The notes: generated by a model from the letters alone, not told the origin. DNA of 32,175 bases from an uncultured Bacillota bacterium (GCA_900318075.1 ONJI01000040.1:1-32175); one strand, 5' to 3'. Counted from the stretch's first letter, positions 3,895 through 21,371 are shown. Program-made: numbers and translations.

Positions 3895-5514
3895 ATGATA
3901 CTGAGAAAGCCTTATGCAGTTTTTATTAAATATTTTAAACTATTACATGCAGTAATGGCTGCTTTTATAGCTTTAGTTCTTTATAGATCTATTAGGCTTT
4001 ATAATTTCTTTAGAGTTTATTCTATCGATTACCGTGCAGCAATGGGTGATTTTTCAGTTAGTAGATATTTGAACACATATAGTTTTGTTTTTACTATATT
4101 TATTTTAATTCTGACTATAGTTTTACTTTCAGTACTTATTTATAAGAAAAAACCTAAGTCACTTTATTTATATAATTTGATTTTATATGTTTTAGTTATA
4201 GTTTTATATATGTTTTGCGATACGGCTTTAAGGAATGCGAGTAGTGTCATTTTAGATGTAAGATTATCTAAAGCTCTTAGGGACTTTACTTTAATTGCAA
4301 TTATCTTTCAGTTTGCTAGTTTAGTATTGGTCATCGTTAGAGCAATTGGTTTTGATATTAAGCGTTTTGATTTTGGTGCTGATTTGCAGCAACTTGATAT
4401 TTCTGAAAAAGATAGTGAAGAAATTGAGGTTGCTATAGATTTTGATAAAGATGAAATTATCCGCAATTTTAAAAGTAATATTAGACATTCCAAGTATGTC
4501 TATGTAGAGCACAAGTTTATCATAAACGTTGCTATTGCAATTATAGTATTTGCTATATCTGTTTTTACATATTTAACTATTGGTGCTTATACTGAAAACT
4601 ACAATCAAGGTCAAACTTTTAGTGCGAGCGGTGTGACTATGAATGTTATTGATTCTTATATTTTAGATAGTGATGCTAGTGGTAAAAAACTTGTAGAAAC
4701 TGAAGGCAGTAATGCTGGAGCGATAGTTGTAGTTAGATTTCAAATAAAGGGTTTTCGCGTTAATCAAACTCTTAATACGGGACTTGCTACTTTAAAAATT
4801 GGTGATTTATCTTATAGTCAGAGTGTGAATCATGCTGTTGCGCTTTATGATTTAGGAACAGCATATGATAATCAGGAATTAACTGATGAATTTCAAACTT
4901 TTATACTTGCTTATGAAATTCCTTCAACACTTTCTAATAAAAAAATGATTTTGAAGTTTAATGATAGTAATAGTTTTGTAAGAGGCGAGATTGGTTCTAA
5001 AAATATTTTAATCAAATTAAAACCATCTGATTTGAGAAAAGATGGCCAAAATTTTGAAAAAAAACTTAATGAGACAGTTAATTTTGACGAAAGTATTTTA
5101 GGTTCTTCTAGCTTTACTATTAGTGCTTTTGAAATAAGCAATAAATTTAAGCTTGATTATAAGTATTGTTATAAAAAGGATAAATGCGTGGATTCTTATG
5201 AGTTTATTGTGCCAACAGCTACTGGTAATTATTTTAAAACTTTACTTAAAATTACTGGTAATATTACTTTTGATCAAAATTATAATATAAAAGATATTTA
5301 TGACTTTAGAACTTTACTTAATAATTATGGCTGGATAAACTATAAAATAGGGGATAATCTTATATCTAAAAAAATAGATTCAAAGCTTATAAAGACAAGT
5401 TTTGCAAGGACTGATGATAGTTTTATAGAAATACCTTATGAGGTAAATAATGCTTCAGAAATCAGTTTGACTATAAAAATACGAAATCAAAATTATAAAT
5501 ATGTTTTGAAATAG
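3895..5514 (+). CDS. Multi-pass membrane protein with C-terminal ectodomain
   Basis: 539 residues. Four membrane helices lie in the N-terminal part (about 15-35, 58-83, 89-108, 130-152), followed by a charged cytoplasmic segment (about 155-205) and a fifth helix (about 207-230). The remaining 300 residues would be extracellular. The first part of that ectodomain (about 240-365: SASGVTMNVIDSYI, AIVVVRFQIKG, YEIP and similar strands) resembles the immunoglobulin-like DUF4352 type of surface domain; this is a weak resemblance. One Cys pair (YKYCYKKDKCVD) lies late in the protein. It is the first gene of the co-directional Tad/T4SS array, has an AAGGAGGGG ribosome binding site, and may be a scaffold of the machine. 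No catalytic motif is seen. Confidence 0.7.
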   Translation: MILRKPYAVFIKYFKLLHAVMAAFIALVLYRSIRLYNFFRVYSIDYRAAMGDFSVSRYLNTYSFVFTIFILILTIVLLSVLIYKKKPKSLYLYNLILYVLVIVLYMFCDTALRNASSVILDVRLSKALRDFTLIAIIFQFASLVLVIVRAIGFDIKRFDFGADLQQLDISEKDSEEIEVAIDFDKDEIIRNFKSNIRHSKYVYVEHKFIINVAIAIIVFAISVFTYLTIGAYTENYNQGQTFSASGVTMNVIDSYILDSDASGKKLVETEGSNAGAIVVVRFQIKGFRVNQTLNTGLATLKIGDLSYSQSVNHAVALYDLGTAYDNQELTDEFQTFILAYEIPSTLSNKKMILKFNDSNSFVRGEIGSKNILIKLKPSDLRKDGQNFEKKLNETVNFDESILGSSSFTISAFEISNKFKLDYKYCYKKDKCVDSYEFIVPTATGNYFKTLLKITGNITFDQNYNIKDIYDFRTLLNNYGWINYKIGDNLISKKIDSKLIKTSFARTDDSFIEIPYEVNNASEISLTIKIRNQNYKYVLK

Positions 5515-5548: not shown

Positions 5549-6166
5549 ATGATGGAAAACAGATATGTGAAATATTTTGTATGTTTGCTTTTTTGCTTTT
5601 TTGTGTCTCCTTTGATTACGAAGGCTACCTGCGATTATCAAAGAATGGCTGAGCTTTCTAAAATTGCTAGTAATGTTCAATTTAGTTATACTTATAAAGT
5701 CGAAAATAATATGCCAATTTTTTACTTAAGTGTTAGTAATATAACTAGCGATATATATGTTACTGATAATTATGGAAATATTTATAGGCAAAATATAAAC
5801 GATATTCAAATTTTTCTTGGTTCAAATATGACATTTAATATTTATTCACATGATTATAATTGTCAAGGGGATAAACTACTTACGAAATATCTTAATTTAC
5901 CATTTTATAATAAATATTCTAGTTATCCAGAGTGTGCGAATTATAGAAATTATAGTGCGTGTCAAATGTGGACAAACGATGCGCCTGTAACTGATGGCGA
6001 GTTTTATGAAAAAATAAATAGTTATAAAAAAACTAATAGTGATAAAATTATAGATAATAACGATGATACAGGGTTTATTCAAAAATATTCAATATTTATT
6101 ATTACTGGAGTTATATGCGTTATTGGCATTTCAATTATGATTTTAGTTTGGAGGAAAAGAAAATGA
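5549..6166 (+). CDS. Secreted single-pass surface protein, Cys-containing
   Basis: 205 residues. A signal peptide (about residues 1-27: hydrophobic CLLFCFF core, then LITKATC), an ectodomain of about 145 residues, and a C-terminal membrane helix (about 178-199) ending in WRKRK as a stop-transfer signal. The exported part has at least four cysteines (TCDYQ, YNCQG, PECANY, SACQMW), suggesting disulfides. No catalytic motif or known family is recognised. AAGGAGG precedes ATG-ATG at 5549/5552. The stop overlaps the start of the thioester protein (ATGA at 6163-6166), so both are made together; it is a candidate membrane partner or anchor for that protein (inference from coupling). Confidence 0.7.
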   Translation: MMENRYVKYFVCLLFCFFVSPLITKATCDYQRMAELSKIASNVQFSYTYKVENNMPIFYLSVSNITSDIYVTDNYGNIYRQNINDIQIFLGSNMTFNIYSHDYNCQGDKLLTKYLNLPFYNKYSSYPECANYRNYSACQMWTNDAPVTDGEFYEKINSYKKTNSDKIIDNNDDTGFIQKYSIFIITGVICVIGISIMILVWRKRK

Positions 6167-9135
6167 AAAAAAAGCTTATTTTATTGTTTGTTTTCATGAT
6201 GTTTTTAGGAATGGGAAGTGTTTCGGCCGATTATACGTGCAGTGCTAACAAAAATTGGTATAATTGCGATGGTGATGCATGTTCCTGTGAAATAAGTAAA
6301 GACAGCATTGATGGAATGTATTCAACATTTTATTATGCTAAAATACGAAATAAAAAAACTAATGAGGAAGATATAGCATATTGTATGGATGCTACTAGGT
6401 TATTTTATGGTCCTGTTAAAACACTTGAGGCTGACGCCGTATCTTATTGGTGGAATTATAGACTTACTACTTTTGATTACTCAATTCAAGATTACACTCG
6501 TATAGCGTCATTGAAAGAAAGAGGAAAAAGTGTAGAAGACGTTAAAGAATTTATAAAGCATGTTGGAGTTTACAAGTATTATTTTGAAAAGGAAAATCCA
6601 TATAATGGTTCAACCTTTGGCAGTGATAACATGAGATATTATGTCCAAAAGGCTATTTGGTGGCTTATGGCAAGAGAATACGGCATAGTAGAGGGTACGA
6701 CATTAAACTATATGTGGTCAAAAGGCTTTAAAGCTCATATTTCTAATGCTGAAAATTTTTATAATCAGCATAAGGATGAATTTGAGGTATCTGCACAAAT
6801 ATGGACAACCCCTGGTGATGGTGGCCAGCCAATTGCAACTTTAGATGTTAAAAGAAGACAAAACTATGATTACTCATTAGATATAGCTTGTACTAACTGT
6901 GATTCTAAAAATTCTGATAGTAAAGCATATGTTATTCAAGATACAACTGACTGGGATGCAATTAGAAATAGTAGAAAAGCAAGTAATTGTTCAGATGGAG
7001 TAAAATCACATTTTTATAAATCTGAAACTGGTTCATATTGTAGAGAAGAGTATCATGTTTATTTCCCTAACTCAACTAATAAAATAACTATTCAAACTGG
7101 AAGATATTTTACTTTAAATAGAAGATCTAGTGATGATAAGTATGTGGCTGCAGACATTCCTGATTTTAGGCCAGTAAAGGTTACTAAAATTAGAGAGTGT
7201 AAAGATGGTGATTTAAATAAATTAAAACAATTATCTGATTCATCTTTTACTAAATGTACTGGAGATATAACAATAGAATATAAAGAAGATAAATATAGTG
7301 TTACTAAAAAACTTGAACGTTATGCTAAAGCTTTAGAAAGCTCTTCTGCAATTAATGGTGATACATTAGTACAAAAGGCAACTTATGAATATACTTTGCC
7401 TAGTGATTTATATAGATATGTTGCTGTAGGAAGTGGACTTTCTAAATCAGCTATTACTGATTCAGAATTAAAATCAGGTGGTTTTAAAAATATTGGAGTT
7501 GGTAATTTACCAATTAGTAATAATAATAGTGGAAAGGTTTACTTACAATTTTCGTATGAACTTCCTAAGAGTAGCTGTGATAAATATACTAAAATGGCTA
7601 CAGCTTACAAAAATGGTAATTTAAATTGTAAAAATGATAATCTTGAAAATGTCTATAAAAAATATGTAAATGGTAAAACTGACGGTAATGAGAAAATAGA
7701 ACAAAGTGCCTGCGTAAAACTATATGGTTCAAGTAAACTTGGTCAAGGGGGCAGTGATGTTGAAAATTGTATTAAGGCAAGAGTAAACAATAGAACAAGC
7801 AAAAGCTGTATAAATCAAAATAAAATAAACGAAGATAAGACTAAGGGTTATTCTTGTTTATTAGTCGGCGATGATGATGAAGAACCTAATTATTGTACGG
7901 ACAAAGATGGAAAAAAACAAAAGTGTGCAGACGGTGAAGATTTAGAAACTTGTAAAAAGAGATTATGTCCTGGAGGACCTAATTATTGTATGGACAAAAA
8001 TGGAAATAAAAAACAGTGTGCAGACGGTGAAGATTTAGAAACTTGTAAAAAGAGATTATGTCCTGAAGTACCTAATTATTGTACGGACAAAAATGGAAAT
8101 AAAAAACAGTGTGCCGATGGTGAAGATTTAGATGCTTGTAAAAAGAGATTATGTCCTGGAGTACCTAATTATTGTACGGACAAAAATGGAAATAAAAAAC
8201 AGTGTGCCGATGGTGAAGATTTAGATGCTTGTAAAAAAAGATTATGTCCTGGTGGCGGTGGTGGTAAATGCCGCACAGAAAATGGTAAGTATTATGACGA
8301 CAATAACAATGTGATTACTGCAAAAGAATATAGTAAGATTTGTTGTAATGAATCAAATCATGAAGAATTAGGACTTTCATGGAATCCAACTAGTAAAAAG
8401 TGTTGCCCACCTGATCAAAAATATTCTGAGGATACAAAAACATGTGTTCCAGATGGCAGTGGCAAATGCAGATATGAAAACAATGTATACTATGATGATA
8501 ATGGAAATCGAATTACTAAAGAACAGTATGATGAGGTTTGCGTTAGCTGTAGTTTCTTTACTTATGCAGCGAGTGGACGTTCATGGAACCCGGTTGCTGG
8601 AGCTTGCTGTCCAGTTGGTCAATATTACAATGAGGAGACAAAAAAATGTGAAAATAAGCATTGTTCTGATGGACAGACTCCTTGCCCAGATGGAAAGTGT
8701 CCTACTAAAGAAGGACTTTGTTCTGGAACGCCAGGTATAAAACCTCCTGGAGCTAATACTGTAGTTTACCATACAATTGATTTAACAAATCCGTTTATTG
8801 GAAAAGCTGGAAAGAATAGAACTACTGGTGGTAACTGGTGTGAAAACGGCAATAATTTTGATTGCAGCACTAATAATGCGGTTGTTAAAAAGATTATAAC
8901 TAGTAAGTCAGTATATAATGAGGAACATAAGCTTTACGAAATTACTTTAGATTCTAAAACTATCAATACAATTAGGAAATATAATAGAAAAAGAACTTAT
9001 GATGATTGGGATTTAACTTGTAAATCTGATGGTAGTGCTTGCACAAGTAAATTCCTCAATAGCGTTATTAGAAGTAATGTCCAAGGTAAATGTGCTAATG
9101 CTTCAAAGGGTAAGTTCTATACTTGTGATGATTAA
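6163..9135 (+). CDS. Large secreted thioester-domain adhesin with Cys-rich repeats
   Basis: 990 residues from ATG 6163, chosen because GGAGG (6150-6154) precedes it and a signal peptide (MKKKLILLF...SVSA, cut near residue 23) begins there; an upstream in-frame ATG at 6115 lies inside the previous gene. The N-terminal domain carries the three signatures of a thioester domain (TED): AYCMD with Cys74, VQKAIWW (the TQxAxW block) at about 161-167, and GQPIA with Gln222. The Cys-Gln spacing of 148 is close to that of known TEDs. In that family the internal Cys-Gln thioester bonds covalently to host surface proteins. Then come four 31-residue Cys-rich repeats, two larger Cys-rich modules (GKCR...YYDDN...SWNP...CCP) and a C-terminal domain ending FYTCDD. 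There is no LPxTG signal and no C-terminal membrane helix, so its anchoring is unexplained. Confidence 0.8.
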   Translation: MKKKLILLFVFMMFLGMGSVSADYTCSANKNWYNCDGDACSCEISKDSIDGMYSTFYYAKIRNKKTNEEDIAYCMDATRLFYGPVKTLEADAVSYWWNYRLTTFDYSIQDYTRIASLKERGKSVEDVKEFIKHVGVYKYYFEKENPYNGSTFGSDNMRYYVQKAIWWLMAREYGIVEGTTLNYMWSKGFKAHISNAENFYNQHKDEFEVSAQIWTTPGDGGQPIATLDVKRRQNYDYSLDIACTNCDSKNSDSKAYVIQDTTDWDAIRNSRKASNCSDGVKSHFYKSETGSYCREEYHVYFPNSTNKITIQTGRYFTLNRRSSDDKYVAADIPDFRPVKVTKIRECKDGDLNKLKQLSDSSFTKCTGDITIEYKEDKYSVTKKLERYAKALESSSAINGDTLVQKATYEYTLPSDLYRYVAVGSGLSKSAITDSELKSGGFKNIGVGNLPISNNNSGKVYLQFSYELPKSSCDKYTKMATAYKNGNLNCKNDNLENVYKKYVNGKTDGNEKIEQSACVKLYGSSKLGQGGSDVENCIKARVNNRTSKSCINQNKINEDKTKGYSCLLVGDDDEEPNYCTDKDGKKQKCADGEDLETCKKRLCPGGPNYCMDKNGNKKQCADGEDLETCKKRLCPEVPNYCTDKNGNKKQCADGEDLDACKKRLCPGVPNYCTDKNGNKKQCADGEDLDACKKRLCPGGGGGKCRTENGKYYDDNNNVITAKEYSKICCNESNHEELGLSWNPTSKKCCPPDQKYSEDTKTCVPDGSGKCRYENNVYYDDNGNRITKEQYDEVCVSCSFFTYAASGRSWNPVAGACCPVGQYYNEETKKCENKHCSDGQTPCPDGKCPTKEGLCSGTPGIKPPGANTVVYHTIDLTNPFIGKAGKNRTTGGNWCENGNNFDCSTNNAVVKKIITSKSVYNEEHKLYEITLDSKTINTIRKYNRKRTYDDWDLTCKSDGSACTSKFLNSVIRSNVQGKCANASKGKFYTCDD
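7885..8256 (+). repeat. Four tandem 93-bp coding repeats
   Basis: Units begin at 7885, 7978, 8071 and 8164, each exactly 93 bases (31 residues). Each encodes PNYC.DK.GKK/NKK, then CADGEDL, then CKKRLCPG, with four cysteines. Units 3 and 4 are almost identical at DNA level, including synonymous positions, which points to recent duplication and possible copy-number variation. Confidence 0.9.
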
Positions 9136-9149
9136 GGTGAGGTGATAAA

Positions 9150-9551
9150 ATGAAGGAATCATTTTGGGGAATATTTGTAGTTTTTATGGGTGTACTCGCC
9201 CTTACCTTTATAGTTTTATTTCAAAATTTAACAAATACTGACCAGCACAATTCCCAGCTGCTTCAAGAAGTAACTGAAGCAGCTATGTGGGATGCTGTAG
9301 ATTATGCGGAGTATAGGGCTACAGGTACATTAAAAATTAACAGAGAAAAATTTGTTGAAAATTTTGTTAGAAGATATGCTGAAAGTGCGAGTAGGTCAAG
9401 AGAGTATGTTCTTACATTCTATGATGTTAATGAAGTTCCACCTAAGGTTAGTGTAAGTGTAAAAAGTAGAGTGGTTGGGAATAATAATAGTACTCAAGTG
9501 ACATTCGACCTTCAAAATAGATTGGACGCTATTTTAGAATCAAAATATTAA
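9150..9551 (+). CDS. Pseudopilin-like protein with N-terminal helix (DUF5411-like)
   Basis: 133 residues. It starts MKESFWGIF and has a single N-terminal hydrophobic helix (about 5-27), then a mostly charged ectodomain with the conserved-looking segments QEVTEAAMWDAVDYAEYR and FVENFVRRYAESA. No cysteine. The layout (very short leader, one helix, small exported domain) is that of TadE/TadF-like minor pseudopilins, and the sequence resembles a family I know as DUF5411; that family name is from memory and could not be verified. The start follows AAGGTGAGGTGA (9134-9145). It lies between the thioester protein and CpaB-like genes, the position expected for a minor pilus subunit. Confidence 0.65.
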   Translation: MKESFWGIFVVFMGVLALTFIVLFQNLTNTDQHNSQLLQEVTEAAMWDAVDYAEYRATGTLKINREKFVENFVRRYAESASRSREYVLTFYDVNEVPPKVSVSVKSRVVGNNNSTQVTFDLQNRLDAILESKY

Positions 9552-9574: not shown

Positions 9575-10639
9575 ATGAATAATAATTTATTGGATTCGAT
9601 CAAAAGATTTTTCAAGAACAAGAATACAGTAACAATTATTGGTGTTATAGCTATTTTAATTTTACTGTATATTGGCTATAGCACGCAGATTAAAAAAGCG
9701 GTTGATCCTCTGCAAGTGCCAGTAGCTACGCAAACTATTCAACCAAGAACAGAAATCACTAGTGACATGGTTCAACTTGTCGATATGCCTAATATTTCTG
9801 TTGGTTCAAATGTTATTACTTCTAGAGGAGCAGTTGTTGGTAAATATTCTAATATCAATTCTGTTATTCCAGAAGGTAGTATGTTTTATACCGATATGGT
9901 TATAAATAAAGATGAACTTCCAGATGCCGCATTTACTAAGGTTAAATCTGGAGAAGTTGTCTATAGTTTTCCTGTCGATATGGAAAGTACTTATGGTAAT
10001 TCTATTTTTCCAGGTAATTTAATTGATATTTACATGAAAGTCGGTAATGGTACTGATGAAAAAATCATGATTGGTAAATTACTTGAAAATGTTGAAGTTT
10101 TAGCTGTTAAAGATTCTTCAGGTAGAGCGGTATTTGAAAATACTAGTGAAGATAGATCTCCTGCAATGCTTATTTTTGGACTTTCTGAAGAATACAATTT
10201 ATTGCTTAAAAAAGCATCTTATATGGATGTATTAGGAGTTGAACTATATCCAGTACCTCATGGTGGTGCGGTTGCTAGTACAGGTTCTACACAAGTTTCA
10301 ACTCAACAGTTAGTTGATTATGTAAACGCTCATGCTGTTGATATTCCTGTTGCAACACCTACACAGACACAAACTGATAATTTGCTTCCTACTGTTACAG
10401 AAACTGGTGGAAGTAATAATAAAGTAACTATTACTTATCCTATTGGATGTGGAAGTACTTATACTTGTACTTATCAAAAAGACGGTGGCAAGGTTACTAC
10501 GGTTACTAAAACAACGCAAGTGCTTAATTATAAAACTAATGGTACTTTGACAGCAACTGTCACTGAGAAAAATGGAACGGCTCATACTTTTACTACTAAT
10601 ATTCCTATGACTAATTCAACTACGGGGAATAATGGTTAA
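9575..10639 (+). CDS. CpaB/RcpC-like SAF-domain pilus assembly protein
   Basis: 354 residues: N-terminal membrane helix (about 18-35), then a SAF domain (about 47-110: PVATQTIQPRTEITSDMVQ, later GKYSNINSVIPEGSMF) and an RcpC-like domain (about 115-225) with VDMESTYGNSIFPGNLIDIYMKV. SAF/RcpC proteins are the CpaB subunits of Tad pilus machines and are thought to organise the pilus channel at the cell surface. The last 120 residues are Thr-rich and contain a YPIGCGSTYTCTY segment with two cysteines, an addition that CpaB proteins usually lack; it looks like a small Ig-like surface domain. AAGAGGAGAG (about 9562-9571) is the ribosome binding site. The stop overlaps the cpaF start by one base (TAATG). 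Confidence 0.8.
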   Translation: MNNNLLDSIKRFFKNKNTVTIIGVIAILILLYIGYSTQIKKAVDPLQVPVATQTIQPRTEITSDMVQLVDMPNISVGSNVITSRGAVVGKYSNINSVIPEGSMFYTDMVINKDELPDAAFTKVKSGEVVYSFPVDMESTYGNSIFPGNLIDIYMKVGNGTDEKIMIGKLLENVEVLAVKDSSGRAVFENTSEDRSPAMLIFGLSEEYNLLLKKASYMDVLGVELYPVPHGGAVASTGSTQVSTQQLVDYVNAHAVDIPVATPTQTQTDNLLPTVTETGGSNNKVTITYPIGCGSTYTCTYQKDGGKVTTVTKTTQVLNYKTNGTLTATVTEKNGTAHTFTTNIPMTNSTTGNNG

Positions 10640-12144
10640 TGGATGCTAATTTCGATCAAATAGATTTTGGACCGTTAAAGCCTTATTTGGACGATGATGA
10701 TATTACCGATATTTCTTATGATAATGGCGGACAGATACATTTAAAAACATTATCTAAGGGTATATTTAGAGTAGATAATCAAGCGATTAATAATGCTTTT
10801 ATGGAGAAGCTTGCCTTTCAGTGTTCAAATGTAATGGGTAAGACATTTAATATGGCTCATCCTTTCTTGGATGCTGAAAGTGCAGAACTTCGTCTTGCGT
10901 TTATACATGATTCTGTTTCAAGAAATGGTATTGCATGTGTTGTTCGTAAAACGCCGGCGAAGATAAGACTTCAAAAAGAGAAAATTCTAGCTGAAAAATA
11001 TGTTGAATTAGATATCCTAGATTTTTTAGAGCAATGTGTTTTAGGACATTGTAATATGATTGTAAGTGGTGAAACTGGTTCTGGTAAAACTGAACTTGTC
11101 AAATATTTGGCTTCTAAGATAGCTGAAAATGAAAAAATTATTACAGTCGAAGATACGCTTGAATTACATTTGGACAGGATATTTCCACATAGAGATATAG
11201 TATCGATGAAAACTAATAATATTGCATCTTATACTGATATTTTGGAAGCTTGCATGCGACAAAATCCAAAGTGGATATTGCTTTCAGAAGTTCGTAGTGC
11301 GGAAGCGGTTCTCGCTGTTCGTAACTCTATTTCTTCTGGACATTATATTCTTTCAACTATTCATGCGGATAAAGCTTCTTCTATACCAAACCGTATGTAT
11401 AGTCTACTTGAAACTAACCAAGATTTGGATCAATTTATGAGTTCAATTTGTAGGTATATTCAAATAGGTATATATGTTAGAGGTTATACTGATAAGGCTA
11501 CACATAATTTTAAAAGAGAAATTGCTGAAGTTACGGAATTCTTTGTAACTAGCGATACAAATAAAGCTGGTCATAATATAATTTATCGTAAGGGTGCGGA
11601 TGGTAAAGTAATTAGAAATAATCCTAGTCCTTATTTGATTGATTATTTGGAAGTTCAAGGTGTCTTTTTGCCTAAGGAGCTTCAAAATATGGCTGGCGAT
11701 GCAAATGAAAAAAATGACACTTTGTTAACAGTTCAAGAACCACTTAGTGAAAAAGAAATTTCTGATAATCAGACGGTAACTTTCAATCGCAGTGGTGTGA
11801 CTATTGAAACAAATGATAATATTTCTTCAGAAAATAGTTCTAAAGAGAGTGAAGATGTTGTTCCTTTGGAATCGCCTGCGGAAGTTTTAGAAAGTCAAAC
11901 TTTTGGAACTGCCAGTACTCAAAATTCAGTAGGACCTATGGTCCAACCTAATTTAGTTCAGGAGCCTGTTCCTGAGGTAGTACCTATAAGTCCTGTTGTT
12001 TCTACACCTTCGCAGATTAATGATGGAACGTTAAATCAGGTAGAAGCTCAACCAGTTAATCAGTCAGCTTTTACACAGGCTAGTGTTCAATCAGTTCCTA
12101 CACAAACTGTTGAAGCGCCAGTTGTAGATAAATTATTTGAATAA
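10639..12144 (+). CDS. cpaF: CpaF/TadA-type secretion ATPase with long C-terminal tail
   Basis: 501 residues. The core is a VirB11/CpaF hexameric ATPase: a Walker A GETGSGKT at 144-151, the Asp box VEDTLELHLD, a Walker B region WILLSEVR at 212-219, and a His box STIHADKA near 240. It powers pilin polymerisation from the cytoplasm, acting on the TadB/TadC platform encoded just downstream. In most CpaF proteins the Walker B context is LVGE.R; here it is LLSEVR, with Ser in place of Gly. Residues from about 355 to 501 form a low-complexity tail rich in Pro, Gln, Ser, Thr and Val, unusual for this family. It has no separate ribosome binding site and relies on coupling with the cpaB-like gene. Confidence 0.9.
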   Translation: MDANFDQIDFGPLKPYLDDDDITDISYDNGGQIHLKTLSKGIFRVDNQAINNAFMEKLAFQCSNVMGKTFNMAHPFLDAESAELRLAFIHDSVSRNGIACVVRKTPAKIRLQKEKILAEKYVELDILDFLEQCVLGHCNMIVSGETGSGKTELVKYLASKIAENEKIITVEDTLELHLDRIFPHRDIVSMKTNNIASYTDILEACMRQNPKWILLSEVRSAEAVLAVRNSISSGHYILSTIHADKASSIPNRMYSLLETNQDLDQFMSSICRYIQIGIYVRGYTDKATHNFKREIAEVTEFFVTSDTNKAGHNIIYRKGADGKVIRNNPSPYLIDYLEVQGVFLPKELQNMAGDANEKNDTLLTVQEPLSEKEISDNQTVTFNRSGVTIETNDNISSENSSKESEDVVPLESPAEVLESQTFGTASTQNSVGPMVQPNLVQEPVPEVVPISPVVSTPSQINDGTLNQVEAQPVNQSAFTQASVQSVPTQTVEAPVVDKLFE

Positions 12145-12157
12145 AGGAGGCTAAAAT

Positions 12158-13063
12158 ATGACATTTTTAATATTTATTGCTGTCTTGGCAATTTCTATAT
12201 TCGTAGTTCTTTATAGGAATAATAGTAACAGTAACAATGTTTATAAGTTCATCAATACTAAAATCAATGTTGTATATGATAAATATGCTCCTTATTCATT
12301 TAAGGTTATTAGGGCTAAGGTTAAAGAGCTTGGACAGGAGTATACGCCAAGACAATATGCGATTCAAATTATAGTATTTGCTGTTGGAGCGTCTGTTGTA
12401 ACTTATTTATATTTTTATAATATTTTGACTTCGTTAGTTTATGCTGTAATTGCAGTATCAGCTATTCCATATTTAACTTATTTGCGTTGTAAAAGACTTT
12501 ATAGTGAATTTATATTTGAACAAATTCAAGTATATACAACCAATACAATTATGGAATTTGCGACAACCCAGTCGTTTGTAAAGGCTTTAGAAGGTGTTTA
12601 TCAATCTGAAGTGCTTGAAGATCCTGTAAAGTCTGATGTAAAGATGATGATTGATATGGCATATGAAAATGGAACGATTGATCAGTCACTTGATTATATG
12701 AATTCCAAATATGATTACCATATTGTAAGAAATATGCATCAATTATTTTTACAGATTACAAATGAGGGTTCGAGAGATGCTGGAGAGTCACTTGAAAATA
12801 TGAGTCAGGATATAGATATGCTTGTCGAAAGTGTCTATCGTGATCGTATCGATAGGGCTGGCTTTCACAAAAAGTTTTTACAATTTGGTATAATTTTATA
12901 TTTAATGGTTATGCTTGTACAGTTTATGCTTGGAATCGAAACTTATAATGAAATGCTTAATGATTTGTGGGTAAGAGTTTTATTACATGGAATAATTATA
13001 CTTAATACATATTTCCTACTTTCTGGTGAAAAATATTATAATGAAGATGTGGGGGCGGAATAA
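12158..13063 (+). CDS. TadB-like inner membrane platform protein (T2SF fold)
   Basis: 301 residues. One helix at the N-terminus (about 1-20), a hydrophobic pair at about 70-110 and a C-terminal pair (about 240-290). Between them is a helical cytoplasmic domain with the T2SF/GspF pattern: QVYTTNTIMEFATTQSFVKALEGV, later NGTIDQSLDYM, and ITNEGSRDAGESLENMSQDID. TadB and TadC form the membrane platform on which CpaF acts. AAAGGAGG (12144-12151) precedes the ATG. The stop overlaps the tadC-like start (TAATG at 13061-13065). Confidence 0.8.
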   Translation: MTFLIFIAVLAISIFVVLYRNNSNSNNVYKFINTKINVVYDKYAPYSFKVIRAKVKELGQEYTPRQYAIQIIVFAVGASVVTYLYFYNILTSLVYAVIAVSAIPYLTYLRCKRLYSEFIFEQIQVYTTNTIMEFATTQSFVKALEGVYQSEVLEDPVKSDVKMMIDMAYENGTIDQSLDYMNSKYDYHIVRNMHQLFLQITNEGSRDAGESLENMSQDIDMLVESVYRDRIDRAGFHKKFLQFGIILYLMVMLVQFMLGIETYNEMLNDLWVRVLLHGIIILNTYFLLSGEKYYNEDVGAE

Positions 13064-13857
13064 TGAGTACTGGTGTGTTATTTATATTTATCGGTATAAT
13101 TTTAGTTTTTATACTTGAGTACAATCAGCATTTTAGCTCTCGCAAATTTATCCAAGATAATTCTGTATATTTTAAAGGATTAATGGAAGATGATTATAAG
13201 TTTTTATTAAATGTAAAATATGGTAAGGAAGTTGATGTTGAAAAGCTTTTTAATCAAAGAGTAAGAAATGCTTTGATTGTAATTGTATTTTTCTTCTTTA
13301 TATTTTTAAATAAACTTACGTTTGCATATGTTTTGCTTTCTGCATTATTAGGATTTGGAATGTTTAAACTTCCATATATCCAGCTTAAAAGTTATTACAA
13401 TGCAAATTTACATAAAATTAACTTAATGCTTCCATACTATTTAAAGGGACTTGAAATTTTGATTCAGCACTATACTGTCCCTGTAGCGCTTGCTAGAAGT
13501 ATTAATACAGCCCCAGAAATATTTAAACCTGGACTTGAAAGATTAATTGCTAAAATAGATGCTGGTGATTCATCTGTACAACCTTATATGGATTTTGCAC
13601 AGGAGTATCCAGTTAGAGATTCGATGAGAATGATGCGACTTTTATATCGTTTAGGTTTAGGTAGCCAGGAAAATAAACAAGAACAATTGATGATGTTTTC
13701 TAGAACGATATCTACTTTACAGAATAAAGCTCGTGAGCAAAAGTATAAAGAGAGATTAGATAAAATGGAAAATAAGACGATGTTCATGTTATTTGGTACT
13801 GGTGGAGGTATACTTTTATTCTTACTTTTGTCAATGATGATGATGATGAATTTCTAA
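13063..13857 (+). CDS. TadC-like inner membrane platform protein
   Basis: 264 residues. N-terminal helix (about 4-20), hydrophobic pair (about 68-105), and a C-terminal helix (about 242-263) ending in a Met-rich stretch. The cytoplasmic domain contains the T2SF-type segments LPYYLKGLEILIQHYTVPVA and MRMMRLLYRLGLGSQENKQE. It is the partner of the preceding TadB-like protein and overlaps it by one base. The ATG context lacks a strong ribosome binding site other than GGGGGCGG just upstream (about 13051-13058), consistent with coupling. It ends 59 bases before the pilin gene, which has its own promoter. Confidence 0.8.
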   Translation: MSTGVLFIFIGIILVFILEYNQHFSSRKFIQDNSVYFKGLMEDDYKFLLNVKYGKEVDVEKLFNQRVRNALIVIVFFFFIFLNKLTFAYVLLSALLGFGMFKLPYIQLKSYYNANLHKINLMLPYYLKGLEILIQHYTVPVALARSINTAPEIFKPGLERLIAKIDAGDSSVQPYMDFAQEYPVRDSMRMMRLLYRLGLGSQENKQEQLMMFSRTISTLQNKAREQKYKERLDKMENKTMFMLFGTGGGILLFLLLSMMMMMNF

Positions 13858-13915: not shown

Positions 13916-14128
13916 ATGAAAGAAGCAGCTGGAGAAGCTAACTTAACAGTTGTAGCTATTATTTTAATAGGTGTTGTAGTTGCAGTTGTAACACCACTTG
14001 TTACTAGTTTAATGGGAAGTACCGCAAAACGTGCATGCTGTACTGACGCTGGCGGAGTATGGAAAGGTAATTCTTGTACTGGTGCTAATACAACTGAATA
14101 TAATTCATGTGTTAAGTCTACTAAATAA
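13916..14128 (+). CDS. Small Flp-like major pilin candidate
   Basis: 70 residues. It starts MKEAAGEANLTVVAIILIGV: a short charged leader followed directly by a long hydrophobic helix (to about residue 33), the layout of Flp/type IV pilins. The canonical prepilin motif (Gly, then Glu at +5) is not clearly present; a Gly6-Glu7 junction is the nearest. The short C-terminal part has four cysteines (RACC, GNSC, NSC), probably as disulfides outside the cell. Its own promoter lies upstream and an intrinsic terminator follows directly, the arrangement expected for an abundant subunit. It sits between tadC-like and pseudopilin genes. Assignment as major pilin is inferred from size, topology and context. 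Confidence 0.7.
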   Translation: MKEAAGEANLTVVAIILIGVVVAVVTPLVTSLMGSTAKRACCTDAGGVWKGNSCTGANTTEYNSCVKSTK

Positions 14129-14135
14129 AGTATAA

Positions 14136-14165
14136 AAAGTGCTTGCTATATAAGCAAGCTTTTCT
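14136..14165 (+). terminator. Terminator/attenuator after the Flp-like pilin
   Basis: Stem GCTTGC (14141-14146) / GCAAGC (14154-14159) with a 7-base loop, flanked by an A-run and followed by TTTTCTT. The downstream genes lack an obvious promoter, so it is probably leaky and lowers their transcription relative to the pilin. Confidence 0.65.
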
Positions 14166-14186
14166 TGGTAAATGGGGTGATGAAAA

Positions 14187-14708
14187 TTGAAAGAAAGTAT
14201 AGGTAGTACATTTCTATACAATATAATTTTTGTTTTTATTATAATTGTTTTTGGCCTTTTATCGGCAACTATTAGTTATTATAAGGGATTTAAGGTAAAT
14301 ACTCGTATCTTGTCATCTATTAATAAATATGCTGGTTATAATGCTTGTTCTAACGCGGAGATAGAAAATTATTTGTCAAGTATTGGTTATACTTATAGTG
14401 ATACTGGTCAAAGAGAGTGTAAAGCTAGAGATGGTTTAGAACCAATAACATCTAATAATAGTAAGTATTTATACTGTGTATATTATCATAATGATGAGAC
14501 TGGGGCAAAGAATAAAGGCGAGAAAAATTATAATTCAGATCCTACTTATTATAGTTATAGTGTAACTAGTTATATTTATGTGGACTTACCTATTGTTGGT
14601 CAATTTAAGGTACCTGTTTACTCTAAGGGTGAAAGGATTTATAACTTTAGTGATTCTCAAGAACAGAGTTCAAAAGTGGCTAGTGGAAAGTGTGGTATTA
14701 GTTCATGA
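14187..14708 (+). CDS. TadE-like pseudopilin A
   Basis: 173 residues from a TTG start, chosen because GGGGTGA (14174-14180) lies 6 bases upstream and the resulting N-terminus (MKESIGSTFL) matches the MKE start of the neighbouring pseudopilins; the ATG at 14180 is in another frame and stops after eight codons. One N-terminal helix (about 10-33), then an ectodomain with four cysteines (NACSN, RECKA, YLYCVYY, SGKCGIS). Segments IENYLSSIGY, KYLYCVYYHND, SYIYVDLPIVGQFKVPVYSKGE align with the next gene, so the two are paralogues. Probably a minor pilus subunit. The stop overlaps the next ATG (ATGA). Confidence 0.7.
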   Translation: MKESIGSTFLYNIIFVFIIIVFGLLSATISYYKGFKVNTRILSSINKYAGYNACSNAEIENYLSSIGYTYSDTGQRECKARDGLEPITSNNSKYLYCVYYHNDETGAKNKGEKNYNSDPTYYSYSVTSYIYVDLPIVGQFKVPVYSKGERIYNFSDSQEQSSKVASGKCGISS

Positions 14709-15208
14709 AGGAAGCAATTGCAAATGCTGGTGTATTTAATTTAATTATAATTTTTGTTGTTATTTTAATTGCATTTTTTGTTGGGTCACTAGGTTATTCT
14801 AAAGCTTTTAAGGTTAAAAATAGAATTATTGATGAAATTGAGAAGGATCAGTGTTATTATCCTGATGAAACAAATGGTAATTGTGCGAAGGTTTCAATGT
14901 CAGAGACGACGCAGGATAGAATTGATAAATGGCTTGGCAGTATTGGTTATAGAGTCAATACTGATAAATATGTAAGCTGCCCTATAATAGAAAGTGACCA
15001 TGTTTTAAATGGGGGTCAAGCTATCAATAAAACTGGTGATTATCAATACTGTATTTATAAATTTAATACTTGTAGTGGTTCTAGGGCAAGATGTGGTACA
15101 TATTATAGAGTTATTGCTTATATGTATTTTGATGTACCAATAGTTGGTGATCTTATAAGAATTCCGGTTGTTGGAGAAACTATAACTTTTACAGAGTTAA
15201 ACAGTTAA
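14705..15208 (+). CDS. TadE-like pseudopilin B (paralogue of A)
   Basis: 167 residues, starting MKEAIANAGVF with one N-terminal helix (about 7-30). It shares with pseudopilin A the post-helix GYSKAFKVKNRI (GFKVNTRI in A), the IDKWLGSIGY segment, YQYCIYKFN, and the C-terminal AYMYFDVPIVGDLIRIPVVGET block. It has five cysteines in the exported part. The four-base overlap with A implies coupled synthesis at similar amounts. The function is inferred to be a second minor pilus subunit; a DUF-type name cannot be given. Confidence 0.7.
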   Translation: MKEAIANAGVFNLIIIFVVILIAFFVGSLGYSKAFKVKNRIIDEIEKDQCYYPDETNGNCAKVSMSETTQDRIDKWLGSIGYRVNTDKYVSCPIIESDHVLNGGQAINKTGDYQYCIYKFNTCSGSRARCGTYYRVIAYMYFDVPIVGDLIRIPVVGETITFTELNS

Positions 15209-16261: not shown

Positions 16262-16290
16262 TTGACAGTTGATAAAAAATAAGGTATATT
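16262..16290 (+). promoter_or_regulatory. Dedicated promoter of the VirB2-like pilin pair
   Basis: Consensus -35 TTGACA (16262-16267), exact 17-base spacer, -10 TATATT (16285-16290). The ribosome binding site GGAGGAGG begins at 16301, so the leader is only about 15 bases. It is among the best-matched promoters in the window. Confidence 0.8.
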
Positions 16291-16313
16291 ATACGTATAA
16301 GGAGGAGGAAAAT

Positions 16314-16667
16314 ATGAATTTAGTAAATGTTTTAGCAGCAGCTGATGTTACATGTGGAGATTTGACTATTCCTGGCGCTGTTGCAGGTCTTATTCATACT
16401 GCTATTCTTATTATTCAAGTAGTAGTACCAATTTTATTAATACTTTGGGGAATGCTTGATTTTGCAAAAGGTGTAATGGGATCTGATGAAGATAAGATTA
16501 AAGAAGGCCAAAAGAAATTTATCCAAAGACTTATCGCAGCTATTATTGTTTTCTTAGTTGTTACAGTTGTACAATTAGTGATTTCTGCAGTTGGTACTTT
16601 AGGTGGTAATGACGCTGATGATGCTTGGAGCTGTGCTAAACAATTAATAAGTGGGTCAGCTAAATAA
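16314..16667 (+). CDS. VirB2/TrbC-like T4SS pilin 1
   Basis: 117 residues from the ATG at 16314, chosen for the GGAGGAGG at 16301-16308; an upstream TTG at 16269 in the same frame lies inside the promoter. Two long hydrophobic helices (about 25-48 and 70-95) are joined by a charged cytoplasmic loop (DFAKGVMGSDEDKIKEGQKKF), the VirB2/TrbC pilin topology. There is no classical signal peptide. Cysteines at VTCGDL and WSCAKQ flank the helices on the outer side and could pair. It forms a paralogous pair with the next gene and has its own strong promoter. Confidence 0.8.
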   Translation: MNLVNVLAAADVTCGDLTIPGAVAGLIHTAILIIQVVVPILLILWGMLDFAKGVMGSDEDKIKEGQKKFIQRLIAAIIVFLVVTVVQLVISAVGTLGGNDADDAWSCAKQLISGSAK

Positions 16668-16681
16668 GGAAGATAATAAAT

Positions 16682-17050
16682 ATGATTTTAAATTTATTAG
16701 ATGTTGCCGATACGACTTTATGTAACGGTATATTAGTACCAAATGAATTATTCAATACTGTTGCTACAATCATTAAGGGAATAAAGATTGCCGTTCCAGT
16801 TTTACTTATTATTTTTGGAATGCTTGATTTTGCTAAATCTGTTATAGCTAAAGAAGAAGATGATGTAAAAAAATACAGAAAATCATTTATTTCGAGAGTT
16901 ATTTCAGCTGTTATAGTATTTTTGATAGTTTTTGTCGTTCAACTGGCTGTTAATTTATTGGCTAGTGTTGAAGATACTAATAATCAAAACGGCCAAACAG
17001 TTAGTGATATATGGAACTGTAGCAAAAAATTTATTAGTGGTGTTAAATAA
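16682..17050 (+). CDS. VirB2/TrbC-like T4SS pilin 2
   Basis: 122 residues, paralogue of the preceding pilin with the same layout. Cys in TTLCNG, first helix with VPVLLIIFGMLDFAKS, charged loop EEDDVKKYRKSF, second helix with AVIVFLIVFVVQLAV, and a C-terminal WNCSKKFISG like the WSCAKQLISG of pilin 1. The ribosome binding site is AAGGAAG (16666-16672). It is followed directly by a terminator hairpin. Two non-identical pilins may form a mixed pilus or a pilus and a cap; the sequence does not say which. Confidence 0.8.
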   Translation: MILNLLDVADTTLCNGILVPNELFNTVATIIKGIKIAVPVLLIIFGMLDFAKSVIAKEEDDVKKYRKSFISRVISAVIVFLIVFVVQLAVNLLASVEDTNNQNGQTVSDIWNCSKKFISGVK

Positions 17051-17052
17051 TT

Positions 17053-17084
17053 AAAAGACGATATTGTGTATTGTCTTTTTTTTT
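17053..17084 (+). terminator. Terminator after the VirB2-like pilins
   Basis: Eleven-bp stem (AAAAGACGATA / TATTGTCTTTT, one G-T pair), loop of 5 bases, then a run of T to 17084. The promoter of the next gene starts inside it. Confidence 0.8.
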
Positions 17085-17092
17085 GTTATAAT
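17064..17092 (+). promoter_or_regulatory. Promoter overlapping the terminator
   Basis: Extended -10 TG-T-TATAAT (TATAAT 17087-17092) with TTGTGT at 17064-17069, spacer 17. It restarts transcription immediately behind the pilin terminator, so the channel genes downstream are set independently of pilin output. Confidence 0.65.
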
Positions 17093-17128
17093 GTAAATGG
17101 TAGAAAACTATTTAAAGGAGTTTTATAT

Positions 17129-18085
17129 ATGAAAAAGAATTATAAATGGTTATTTTGGCTATTTTTATTAATGTTTTTTTGTGTAAATGTTGATAGGGTT
17201 AGTGCTGAACAATTTGATATTTTTTTTAAATGTGATGGTGCAACTAGTAATAATTGTCCTTTGTCAATATTTAATGGGAAACTTGTTGCTAATAGTAATT
17301 ACTGTGATATTTCTGGAAACTGGGATGGAAGTATCGATAATCGTAAAATACAGATTGGTAGCATTGAAGTTTCAGGTACGTCAAAATGTTATAAAGCTGA
17401 ATATTCGTGTGAACGGAATACTGAAACAAATTATTATGAAATAAAAAAATTAAAATTTGTAAGTTCTGATGATACTAAAAATGATGCTGCAAAGGGAATT
17501 ATTTGTCCCAGTGTGCCTTTAATAGATATGTGTAAGGATTATACAGAGGAAAATTTCAAGGAAAAATGTCCTAATGCTCCCAAAGATGCTACATATGAAA
17601 AATTTAGAGGAAAATGTGATTTAAGTTATACAGATGCTATGAATTATTGCGAGGGAAAAAGGGGTTATTATAGTAAAAGTGATATAACGACAGATGATAT
17701 AAAAAAATGGGCTGAGGAACAAGAAAGTTTAAGTATTGATGATGGCGTTAGTAAAGACAATGTAGAATGCTCAGAATTATTTGGTGGAGGCTTGGCTGAT
17801 ATTATTAAAAATTTAATTTTTATTTTGTCTGTTATTGGAGTAATACTTTTAGTGATATTAGTTTCTATGGACTTTATAGGTGCAATTACTTCTAGTGAAG
17901 AAGGTATTGCTGATGCATGGAAGAAGTCAAAAATTAGAATTCTTGCAACAGTTATATTACTTTTATTGCCAGTCCTTACCGGTTTTATTATTGATGTTAT
18001 AAACAATAATTTGTACTTGGATGAAAACAATAATTTGAAAGTCGGAAATGTTTCTGAATGTTTGGGAGAAACTTCAAATAGCTAA
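17129..18085 (+). CDS. VirB2-like membrane domain with N-terminal Cys-rich ectodomain
   Basis: 318 residues from ATG 17129 (AAAGGAG at 17115-17120); an upstream ATG at 17066 in frame falls inside the terminator. Signal peptide (about 1-29, ending RVSA), then a Cys-rich exported region of about 195 residues (for example FKCDGA, NNCPLS, YCDIS, KCYKAEYSC). Two helices follow (about 227-250 and 270-292) joined by a charged loop, SSEEGIADAWKKSK. The membrane part aligns by eye with the pilins upstream (MDFIGAITSSEE versus MLDFAKGVMGSDE). It therefore looks like a VirB2-type pilin fused to an ectodomain, perhaps a tip or adapter subunit. The fusion reading is inference. Confidence 0.65.
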   Translation: MKKNYKWLFWLFLLMFFCVNVDRVSAEQFDIFFKCDGATSNNCPLSIFNGKLVANSNYCDISGNWDGSIDNRKIQIGSIEVSGTSKCYKAEYSCERNTETNYYEIKKLKFVSSDDTKNDAAKGIICPSVPLIDMCKDYTEENFKEKCPNAPKDATYEKFRGKCDLSYTDAMNYCEGKRGYYSKSDITTDDIKKWAEEQESLSIDDGVSKDNVECSELFGGGLADIIKNLIFILSVIGVILLVILVSMDFIGAITSSEEGIADAWKKSKIRILATVILLLLPVLTGFIIDVINNNLYLDENNNLKVGNVSECLGETSNS

Positions 18086-18177
18086 TATGCTATTATTAGG
18101 TAATTGGTCAAAGTGTTTATAATTATTTGTCAATTTTACAAATTTTATTTTTTAAGATTATAGTAAGGAGGATTACT

Positions 18178-20493
18178 ATGTTTAAAGTAAGTATTCTAAA
18201 TACTTTTCTTAGGGGGATAGCTTTCTTTATAGATAAGATTGTTTATTCTTTTATACCAAAGCTATATAGTCTAATTGTTTCGCTTGCTAATGTTAATTTA
18301 TATGAAGATAATTCAACTATTGCGATTCTTATGAACAGAGTATATATATTAATTGGGATTTTTATGCTATTTAGATTATCTTTTTCTATCTTGGCATATA
18401 TAGTTGATCCTAGTTCTTTTTCTGATAAAACAAAAGGATTTACTTCTCTTATTAAGAGAGTTTTAATTGCTTTGGTACTTCTTGTATCGATTCCTTTTCT
18501 GTTTGGAAAAATGTATGAATATCAAGGAAAAATATTAAATAGTGGTATTATCCCTAGACTTATTTTAGGCAGTAGTGCTAGTACTGGAAATAGTTTAGAA
18601 AGTGATGCTACAGGTCTTCAATTCTTAGTGTTTGGCGCATTTTATACTATTAATTATAATAGTGATGAGTTTGCTGCTTGTAATCCTGAAACTTCTAATC
18701 GTTCTTTAGCAAATGTCATAGGAACTACTGATATGGCTTTAGCTAAAGATGGAGAATGCTTAACTAAGTTTTCTGATTTTATTAAGGGTGATGCTAATGT
18801 AGGTGATTTTTTCCCAACGAGCGAAAAAGATGATAGGGATTTTTCAAACTTATCTGATTTATTGGATTTAACTACAAAAAATGGTGAATATGCTATTAAT
18901 TATACTCCAATTGTTTCTACGTTATGTGGAGGGTATTTAGTGTTTTTGCTTTTGTCATTTTGTATAGATGTGGCAGCTAGGATTATTAAGTTAATGTTTT
19001 TACAAATTTTATCACCTGTTGCTGTTATTTCTTCAATTGATCCTACTTCTTCAGACGATAGACTTAAAGAATGGGGAAAAGAATGCTTAACTACTTTTCT
19101 TTCTGTCTTTTTAAGACTAGCAGTTATATATTTACTGATTCAAATGGTAAGAGTGATTACGGGAAGTTTATTCTCTGGTAATTTATATTATGAAGGATTT
19201 ACTGATTCTAATAGGGTTTCAAATATATGGATATATATATTCTTAGTATTTGGTGCATTTAGTGTCGCTAAAAAGATTCCAGATTTGATTGAAAAAGCAT
19301 TAGGTATTAAGTTAAGTGGAGAGTTAAATTTAAATCCATTTAAAGCCTTAGGAGAAAACACAGCTTTTCAAGTTGGTACCGGAGTAGCTTTAGGTGGAGC
19401 TGTTGGTGCTGTATCTGGAGCATTTGGTGGTGCTTTAACAGCACACGGTCTTGGTAAAAATGTGATTGGTGGTGCGTTAGGCGGATTGGCTTCTGGTGCT
19501 GTTAGAGGTCAGTATGGTGGTTTAAGATCTGCTAATATTGGTAAATCGTTTAATAATGCTATAAAAGCTGGAGGGCGAGTATCTAAAGCTCAACAGGTTA
19601 GGGCTGAAACTGGTGGATGGGCTGGATTGCCTGCAATGCTTATAGATAGAGCATTATATGAAATGGGAGCACCAACTACTTTCCAAGCTCAAGATTCAAG
19701 AGTTCAAAGATATAAAAATATAGATAATTCTATGAAGGAAGTAGAAGAAGCGGCTGATGCTGAAATGAGAAAAACATGGAATAATGCTGAAGAGGCACGT
19801 GCTTTCCGTGCTCAAGAAGAGGAAATGATGAGAGCAGAGACGGCTTTTAGAACTACTGGTGCGGCGACTGTTGATGTGGTTCAGAGTATTGAATCACAAG
19901 AAGAAATTGATAGATATATGGAAGAAATGGAGCGTTCTATTAATGATGATCAAGAAGCGTTTAATCAAGCGGTGAGTAGTGGAAGGTTGACTATTAATGA
20001 TGAAGAGTATAGCCGTATTAGAGCTGACTTGGATGCTCGCAGGCAACAATTTGAAAGAGCACAGGAAGAACGTAGAACTACTGGAAAGATATCTGTTATA
20101 TCTTCTAAAACTATTAAAACGGCAGAAGAAATGGATGCATATAGAGAGCAAGCTAATCAACGAAAGAATGCGCTTAGAGCTAGTTATATTGATAAAATCA
20201 CAAATGAAGAAGATAAAGATAATTACAATGCAGAAATTGCATCTAAAAGACGTGCTGTTGATAAAGCTGTTAGAGATACTAATCTATATAGAGATCATAA
20301 AACAGAGGGCGTTAGTTGGAGAGAGATTGCTGATCCTTCTGGAAAGGATTCTGCTGGTAATAAGACAGTCAGAAAACTTTCTAAAGAAAATGCAGCTGAC
20401 ATTGAGTTTTCTTCAGGATATGATGATTCAAGGGATAGAGATAAGGCACTTCATGATACTGCACAACGTGCTCATATAAATGATAAAAATTAA
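18178..20493 (+). CDS. VirB6/TrbL-like channel protein with long cytoplasmic tail
   Basis: 771 residues from ATG 18178, chosen for TAAGGAGG (18163-18170) just upstream. The N-terminal 380 residues hold about six membrane helices (around 10-35, 45-72, 88-106, 245-268, 307-330, 348-370) with a large loop between the third and fourth, as in VirB6/TrbL-type T4SS channel subunits. A Gly/Ala-rich stretch follows (about 400-445, GVALGGAVGAVSGAFGG), then about 320 polar, strongly charged residues (EEMMRAE, ERAQEERR, EEMDAYREQ) predicted to be helical or coiled coil and cytoplasmic. It sits upstream of the PrgI and VirB4 genes, the usual order in Gram-positive T4SSs. The tail is longer than in typical TrbL proteins. 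Confidence 0.75.
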   Translation: MFKVSILNTFLRGIAFFIDKIVYSFIPKLYSLIVSLANVNLYEDNSTIAILMNRVYILIGIFMLFRLSFSILAYIVDPSSFSDKTKGFTSLIKRVLIALVLLVSIPFLFGKMYEYQGKILNSGIIPRLILGSSASTGNSLESDATGLQFLVFGAFYTINYNSDEFAACNPETSNRSLANVIGTTDMALAKDGECLTKFSDFIKGDANVGDFFPTSEKDDRDFSNLSDLLDLTTKNGEYAINYTPIVSTLCGGYLVFLLLSFCIDVAARIIKLMFLQILSPVAVISSIDPTSSDDRLKEWGKECLTTFLSVFLRLAVIYLLIQMVRVITGSLFSGNLYYEGFTDSNRVSNIWIYIFLVFGAFSVAKKIPDLIEKALGIKLSGELNLNPFKALGENTAFQVGTGVALGGAVGAVSGAFGGALTAHGLGKNVIGGALGGLASGAVRGQYGGLRSANIGKSFNNAIKAGGRVSKAQQVRAETGGWAGLPAMLIDRALYEMGAPTTFQAQDSRVQRYKNIDNSMKEVEEAADAEMRKTWNNAEEARAFRAQEEEMMRAETAFRTTGAATVDVVQSIESQEEIDRYMEEMERSINDDQEAFNQAVSSGRLTINDEEYSRIRADLDARRQQFERAQEERRTTGKISVISSKTIKTAEEMDAYREQANQRKNALRASYIDKITNEEDKDNYNAEIASKRRAVDKAVRDTNLYRDHKTEGVSWREIADPSGKDSAGNKTVRKLSKENAADIEFSSGYDDSRDRDKALHDTAQRAHINDKN

Positions 20494-21056: not shown

Positions 21057-21371
21057 ATGGACTTTTTAATACCAGCCAATTCAAAAAAATCAATGCTTAT
21101 ATTGGGAGTATTTGATATATTTGATTTAATATTATTTGTAAGTGGAATTGGAATAACGTTAATACTATTATTAGTGATTAATCCTTCATCTTTACTTGCG
21201 GCCGCTATTGATTTAGCTCCAGCTTTGATATGTGGTTTTTTGGTATTTCCGATTCCAAATTATCGAAATGTTAGAATTCTTTTAACAGAGGTATATAGAT
21301 TTTATACGCAAAGGGAAAGATTTATATGGAAAGGTTGGTGTGTTAAAGATGAATACGGAGAAAAGAGGTAA
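21057..21371 (+). CDS. PrgI/VirB3-like T4SS membrane protein
   Basis: 104 residues: two adjacent membrane helices (about 18-40 and 44-64) after the N-terminal segment FLIPANSKKSMLILGVFD, and a basic cytoplasmic tail (EVYRFYTQRERFIWKGW). This is the size and layout of PrgI family proteins, the Gram-positive counterpart of VirB3, which sits in the membrane with VirB4. It directly precedes virB4, as in known systems, and overlaps its N-terminal cistron by about 23 bases. GGGGAAGGTGAG is the ribosome binding site. Confidence 0.8.
   Translation: MDFLIPANSKKSMLILGVFDIFDLILFVSGIGITLILLLVINPSSLLAAAIDLAPALICGFLVFPIPNYRNVRILLTEVYRFYTQRERFIWKGWCVKDEYGEKR

Follow-up and report, generated by a model that had tools for sequence, protein, structure and literature searches.

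Organisation of the locus

The window (the entire 32,175-nucleotide stretch of DNA that we analysed) carries a cluster of Tad-like pilus and T4SS genes, and every feature given here lies on the + strand. The first conserved gene of the cluster, defined by gene order, encodes a 539-aa membrane protein (3895..5514). It is followed by a gene for a 205-aa protein in which a sequence scan finds a signal peptide and a C-terminal TM segment with RKRK (5549..6166; referred to below as the partner), by the gene for a 990-aa thioester-domain (TED) adhesin (P0001; 6163..9135), and by a gene for a DUF5411 single-TM pseudopilin-like protein (9150..9551; domain match and gene order) that adjoins the adhesin gene in the loci examined. 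Domain matches and gene order then identify the Tad-like pilus core (9575..13857), which consists of RcpC/CpaB (PF16976, E 6.4e-9) and a TadA-like T2SSE ATPase (PF00437, E 2.9e-28), the two matches by which we call the system Tad-like, and two membrane proteins assigned as TadB/TadC by position only. Downstream are three small pilin-like proteins with an N-terminal TM segment (13916..15208; sequence and gene order), T4SS pilin-like proteins with a 320-aa membrane protein (16269..18085; weak PF18895 matches below the cut-off), a VirB6-like protein related to the pLS20_p028 and mycoplasma ICE families (18172..20493; below the families' cut-offs), a protein that is VirB3-like by position and a VirB4 ATPase (together 21057..23679; domain matches), an NlpC/P60 wall hydrolase (23692..24378; domain match) and a VirD4 coupling protein (29366..31591; PF02534, E 1e-55). 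The original prediction had placed the adhesin inside a pilus/T4SS array, and its neighbours are indeed of these two kinds. VirB4 (21340-23679) is encoded by two adjacent genes of 184 and 594 aa; the same split is found in other loci, and is therefore not a sequencing error. Also between the T4SS genes is a 734-aa secreted protein (25606-27810) that has no Pfam match above the cut-off and may be a wall hydrolase.

The open frame of the adhesin would allow an earlier start at position 6115. We prefer the ATG at 6163 because it has a GGAGG ribosome site upstream, forms an ATGA overlap with the stop codon of the partner gene, and places a signal peptide at the N-terminus. This predicted signal peptide spans residues 1-22 (6163..6228; hydrophobic N-terminal stretch, KD 2.34), with cleavage between VSA and DYT. 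Residues 23-234 (6229..6864) make up the head, which motifs, profile comparison and predicted fold assign as a class I-like TED. It includes the predicted thioester Cys74 (AYCMD; 6382..6384), a TQxx-hydrophobic-W helix motif at Gln162..Trp166 (VQKAIWW; 6646..6660) and the predicted thioester Gln222 (GQPIA; 6826..6828). The body that follows (residues 235-574, 6865..7884; CxxC...IQDT..W...YCREEY) is conserved among homologues and is the confident part of the full-length structural model. Next come four tandem Cys-rich repeats of ~31 aa (PNYCxDKNGxKKQCADGEDLxxCKKRLCP; 7885..8256) and, at the C-terminus, a domain that is also conserved among homologues (IDLxxPF...YDDWDLxC; 8740..9132) and in which a scan found neither LPxTG nor a membrane segment. 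The repeats, together with the 55 cysteines of the protein, suggest a disulfide-stiffened stalk, and we consider this their probable role. A scan of P0001 against Pfam and NCBIfam returned nothing of use: no isopeptide or ester domain was recognised in the stalk, and the body has no Pfam match. In structural alignment, the model of the body resembles beta-sandwich folds only weakly.

Sequence and fold evidence for a class I-like TED in the adhesin head

Cys74, VQKAIWW and Gln222 are where the original prediction had put them, and the Cys-Gln spacing is 148 residues. In solved class I TEDs the two residues are 129-153 apart, whereas in BaTIE, a class II TED, the spacing is 195 (PMC4450167, PMC6194298). 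Five homologues share the head type of the adhesin at 18-23% identity, and across these six heads the spacing ranges from 137 to 158. Gln162, Trp166 and Gln222 are invariant in all six, and none has lost the Cys, which stands within DCVN in L035; length differences near the N-terminus cause the Cys of L087 and L035 to be misplaced in head alignments. AYCMD agrees with the class I Cys motif ([YFL]C-hydrophobic-hydrophilic) and VQKAIWW with the class I helix motif. The surroundings of the Gln (GQPIA or KQPLI) are unlike the textbook hydrophobic-Q-hydrophilic-hydrophobic-hydrophobic, a motif described as weak. The number of cysteines per head is odd in all six (5, 1, 3, 5, 3 and 3); only the motif Cys is common to all, and it is the sole cysteine of the L032 head. 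Homologues lacking either bond residue would have counted against the original prediction. Every homologue with the same head keeps both, and those with other heads lack them because the whole domain is replaced rather than the site having decayed.

P0001 does not match the Pfam TED family PF08341; one homologous head, L038, scores 19.8 bits against it, below the curated cut-off of 22, and a phmmer search of PDB sequences with the adhesin head gave chance matches only. Ordinary PF08341 TED proteins are abundant in the genus, with one in the source genome, and we compared a profile of the six heads with a profile of these genus TEDs. The two profiles matched with a probability of 94.7 when signal peptides were included, and with a probability of 88.7 (E 2.5e-6) when they were removed. 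In this match Cys aligns with Cys, and VQKAIWW aligns with TQxAIW. Two other head types found at the locus (FDLVY and VRATAVD, described below) served as negative controls and gave E values of 0.02 or worse.

AlphaFold models were built for the full-length protein (18 sequences; mean pLDDT 65, poor before residue 118) and for the head only (three sequences; pLDDT 56, pTM 0.60). For the prediction input the L087 row was trimmed, and the homologous heads L035, L038 and L040 were left out. In the head-only model the strand with the Cys and three core helices are resolved, and the region around Gln222 is poor. Foldseek found no match at E 0.001 for either model; Cas9 chains, which filled the head-only list at E values of 0.2 and above, were taken as noise. 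With VIA-align, places 1-6 for the head-only model were all class I TEDs (5a0d, 5a0g, 5a0n, 4bug, 5a0l and 4c0z, from C. perfringens twice, S. pneumoniae, Cpa twice and SfbI), with Z values of 3.9-5.2 that are low and come from a low-confidence model. Place 7 was the S. equi adhesin FNE, and unrelated helical proteins ranked below it. For the full-length model, Cpa (4bug) came second with a Z of 5.7, and two further TEDs were lower in the list. Since these Z values are low in themselves, it is only the leading position of TEDs in the list that we take as evidence for a TED fold. SfbI residues 105-258 aligned to residues 48-196 of the head-only model, in which residue 1 is residue 24 of the adhesin, putting Cys74 within one residue of SfbI Cys109. 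By extrapolation, Gln222 would fall at SfbI Gln261, a position that gaps could shift. Hence, in the structure prediction proposed as a check of the thioester, proximity of Cys74 and Gln222 is supported by the fold, with models that are weak around the Cys or the Gln. We conclude from several lines of evidence (sequence, profile and predicted fold) that residues 23-234 are a class I-like TED, as originally proposed, in which the bond itself is predicted to form.

The adhesin occupies a fixed chromosomal position

Homologues of the adhesin body were found in 35 of 44 genomes of the genus, and the adhesin is present in 13 of the 14 good ones. All genus loci examined share one gene order: the 539-aa protein, the 205-aa partner, the adhesin, DUF5411, RcpC, and TadA onward. 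Where enough sequence is available, the pilus genes are followed by T4SS genes that include VirB4 and VirD4. Thus, the search for family members at the equivalent position in related arrays, suggested with the original prediction, found them across both genus and family. Outside the genus, the order partner-adhesin-DUF5411 is kept and the adhesins are strongly diverged. In many of these family-level adhesins a YC[ILMV]DP motif stands close to the N-terminus, and comparison of their profile with that of the genus TEDs gives an E value of 8.4e-6, with no bond Gln established. Several family-level adhesins (among L192 and L199-L204) end in similar short motifs (GGPSWK, GPAFR, GGPSYK). Named relatives are metagenome-assembled genomes (MAGs), among them a bacterium from sheep jejunum and Candidatus Coprosoma intestinipullorum.

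Two genes that we take, from their sequence, to be scpA and scpB precede the cluster in eight loci; the genes upstream in the window differ. Relaxase PF03432 was found in 9 of the 44 genus genomes; the window has none, and the source genome has one on another contig. Searches of plasmids with P0001, and of viral contigs with the head and with the body, found no relatives. An origin of the cluster as an ICE was considered, and was dropped after the synteny and scpA/scpB results. Given the fixed synteny, near-universal presence and scpA/scpB-like flank, we conclude that the machine is a resident of the chromosome and not an ICE; it may nonetheless transfer DNA.

Heads are exchanged on a conserved body

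Most machinery proteins are 55-90% identical between the window locus and its relatives; the adhesin is 26-39% identical. The same body is joined to at least four heads: the TED type of the window (6 loci), a class II-like TED (3 loci; E 1.3e-10 in profile comparison with genus TEDs), an FDLVY type (21 loci) and a VRATAVD type (4 loci). Two further heads at the locus are unclassified. On a machinery tree built from six neighbouring genes, head type needs 9-10 changes. In TadA and DUF5411, loci L038 and L041 agree at 98% identity, yet their heads are unrelated. Conversely, L041 and L184 share a DNA tract of ~1.5 kb at 99-100% identity, against ~75% on both sides. This tract, known from two MAGs, begins inside the partner gene, covers most of it, and ends with the head. 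The simple reading of these sequences is a double-crossover exchange, for which assembly error is the main worry. We also considered that the partner tree might track head type. This was not supported overall: the partner tree, itself weak, needs 10 changes and so follows head type no better than the machinery tree, which gives no support for strict co-inheritance of partner and head across the genus. The swapping of heads between related species suggests an attachment device that switches targets, and not a fixed adhesin.

One genome (G428) has a second partner-adhesin pair (L183, 65-3567) that lacks pilus genes and lies directly upstream of two genes that we read as recA and rny. This pair may serve as a spare cassette from which heads are exchanged; a contaminant of the MAG is the alternative.

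The adhesin lacks a sortase signal

No LPxTG or variant of it, and no C-terminal membrane segment, was found in any of 57 locus proteins scanned, of which at least two (L037 and L190) end before the true C-terminus; hence, among homologues at the locus, all those whose C-terminus is complete lack both a sortase signal and a membrane anchor. The absence of an anchor noted in the original prediction therefore extends to these homologues. Sortases are encoded in all 44 genus genomes. Since the adhesin has no anchor although a sortase is available in every genome, it is likely retained by the pilus/T4SS or by the membrane-anchored partner (5549-6166), two routes that sequence data do not separate. 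Display at the pilus tip, as we infer it, would be one form of the former.

Discussion

The pairing of a TED adhesin with a T4SS or pilus is less unusual than originally held. Cpa was reported in 2010 to carry a TED at the pilus tip. Cpa/Spy0125 of Streptococcus pyogenes resembles the window adhesin in being a pilus-associated class I TED, and no other TED aligned better with the full-length model (4bug, Z 5.7); it differs in having a sortase signal and a sortase-built pilus, where the window adhesin lacks a sorting signal and lies among Tad-like/T4SS genes. SfbI, PnTIE and CpTIE are like the window adhesin in predicted fold, motifs and spacing (129-153 versus 148), but are LPxTG-anchored and lie outside any secretion-machine cluster. 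The closest parallel is TIE-pLS20 (p34 of the Bacillus subtilis plasmid pLS20), published in 2021: a TED adhesin with a signal peptide, encoded in a T4SS operon, that has no LPxTG and is sortase-independent, and whose Cys is required for conjugation (PMC8092201). Its anchoring is likewise unexplained, and its machine includes a remotely related VirB6-like protein. In contrast to the window adhesin, it has a class II TED (Cys68-Gln256) and a CnaB-like stalk, and is plasmid-borne; the window adhesin combines class I-like spacing with Cys-rich repeats, has no recognised CnaB domains, and belongs to a chromosomal locus with Tad-like genes and exchangeable heads. Because TIE-pLS20 and Cpa precede it, neither feature is new alone. 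Recombination also creates pilus adhesin diversity among T-pilus genes of group A Streptococcus, where exchange is reported between strains of one species (PMC11078000); the exchange described here is between species and within one gene, bringing in an unrelated head while the body is kept. What is new is the placement of a class I-like TED within a chromosomal cluster of Tad-like/T4SS genes, and head exchange between species that includes replacement of TED by non-TED heads.

We propose that the adhesin is exported by Sec and carries an exchangeable N-terminal head. In the source genome, an internal thioester would form in this head between Cys74 and Gln222 and would react with a lysine on the target surface to give an amide bond, the established chemistry of TEDs (PMC4450167). 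The body, Cys-rich repeats and C-terminal domain would act as a stalk whose retention needs no sortase; most likely, it binds parts of the Tad-like pilus/T4SS or the partner. Homologous recombination would exchange the head, on at least one occasion along with most of the partner gene, and different binding heads would in this way be presented by a single conserved machine. Host mucosa and other bacteria are both possible targets. Taken as a whole, we consider this explanation probable.

Three other readings have to be weighed against it. The head could have TED ancestry and no longer form a thioester, or be an unrelated domain with a chance motif. Low model confidence and the lack of a Pfam match on P0001 are in line with such a reading, but the helix motif and both bond residues are retained although the heads are only 18-23% identical, cysteine counts are odd in every head with the motif Cys common to all, and the best structural matches are TEDs; we regard it as very unlikely. 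A more substantial competitor is that the adhesin serves in mating-pair formation for a conjugative element, with the TED gluing donor to recipient for DNA transfer by the T4SS in the manner of TIE-pLS20. The cluster has VirD4, VirB4 and VirB6-like genes, the VirB6-like protein matches the pLS20_p028 family, and TIE-pLS20 is itself a sortase-independent TED adhesin needed for efficient conjugation (PMC8092201). We nevertheless find this reading rather improbable, given that the locus is chromosomal, fixed in place and nearly universal (13 of 14 good genomes), with scpA/scpB-like genes ahead of it in eight cases, and given the lack of relatives in plasmids or viral contigs and the scarcity of relaxase PF03432 (the sole family searched; 9 of 44 genomes), which is absent from the window and occurs once elsewhere in the source genome.

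The third reading concerns retention alone: the partner, and not the pilus, would hold the adhesin, and the pilus genes would be mere neighbours. The partner has the signal peptide, C-terminal TM segment and RKRK tail suited to this role; its stop codon overlaps the adhesin start (ATGA), its gene lies within the exchanged L041/L184 tract, and in one genome the pair occurs without the machine, beside the presumed recA and rny. However, the strict family-wide adjacency to DUF5411, RcpC and TadA argues for a link to the pilus, and head type follows the partner tree no better than the machinery tree (10 changes). We give this reading a real but minority chance. Our preferred explanation remains an exchangeable-head TED adhesin with a sortase-independent stalk held by the pilus/T4SS or by the partner.

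If this explanation is correct, covalent thioester adhesion would also be found, in uncultured gut bacteria, with a pilus/T4SS machine that is not of the sortase kind, and the loci would offer a naturally occurring series of adhesins that differ in the head and share one scaffold. Two questions become testable: how TED adhesins without sortase signals stay at the surface, a question left by pLS20, and what selects covalent over other binding heads. More tentatively, the conserved hybrid Tad-like pilus/T4SS of a family of gut Bacilli might display a sortase-independent tip adhesin with a replaceable head cassette, which can be a class I TED, a class II-like TED or one of two or more unrelated types and is swapped between species together with the partner gene, allowing cells to switch between covalent and other binding while keeping one machine.

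The ~1-Mb genomes of the genus each encode 1-5 ordinary PF08341 TED proteins and 1-7 sortases, high numbers for their size. The ordinary TED protein of the source genome (L001, 375-1631) ends in VPPTAANT, a membrane segment and a basic tail, an ending that is perhaps a non-standard sortase signal.
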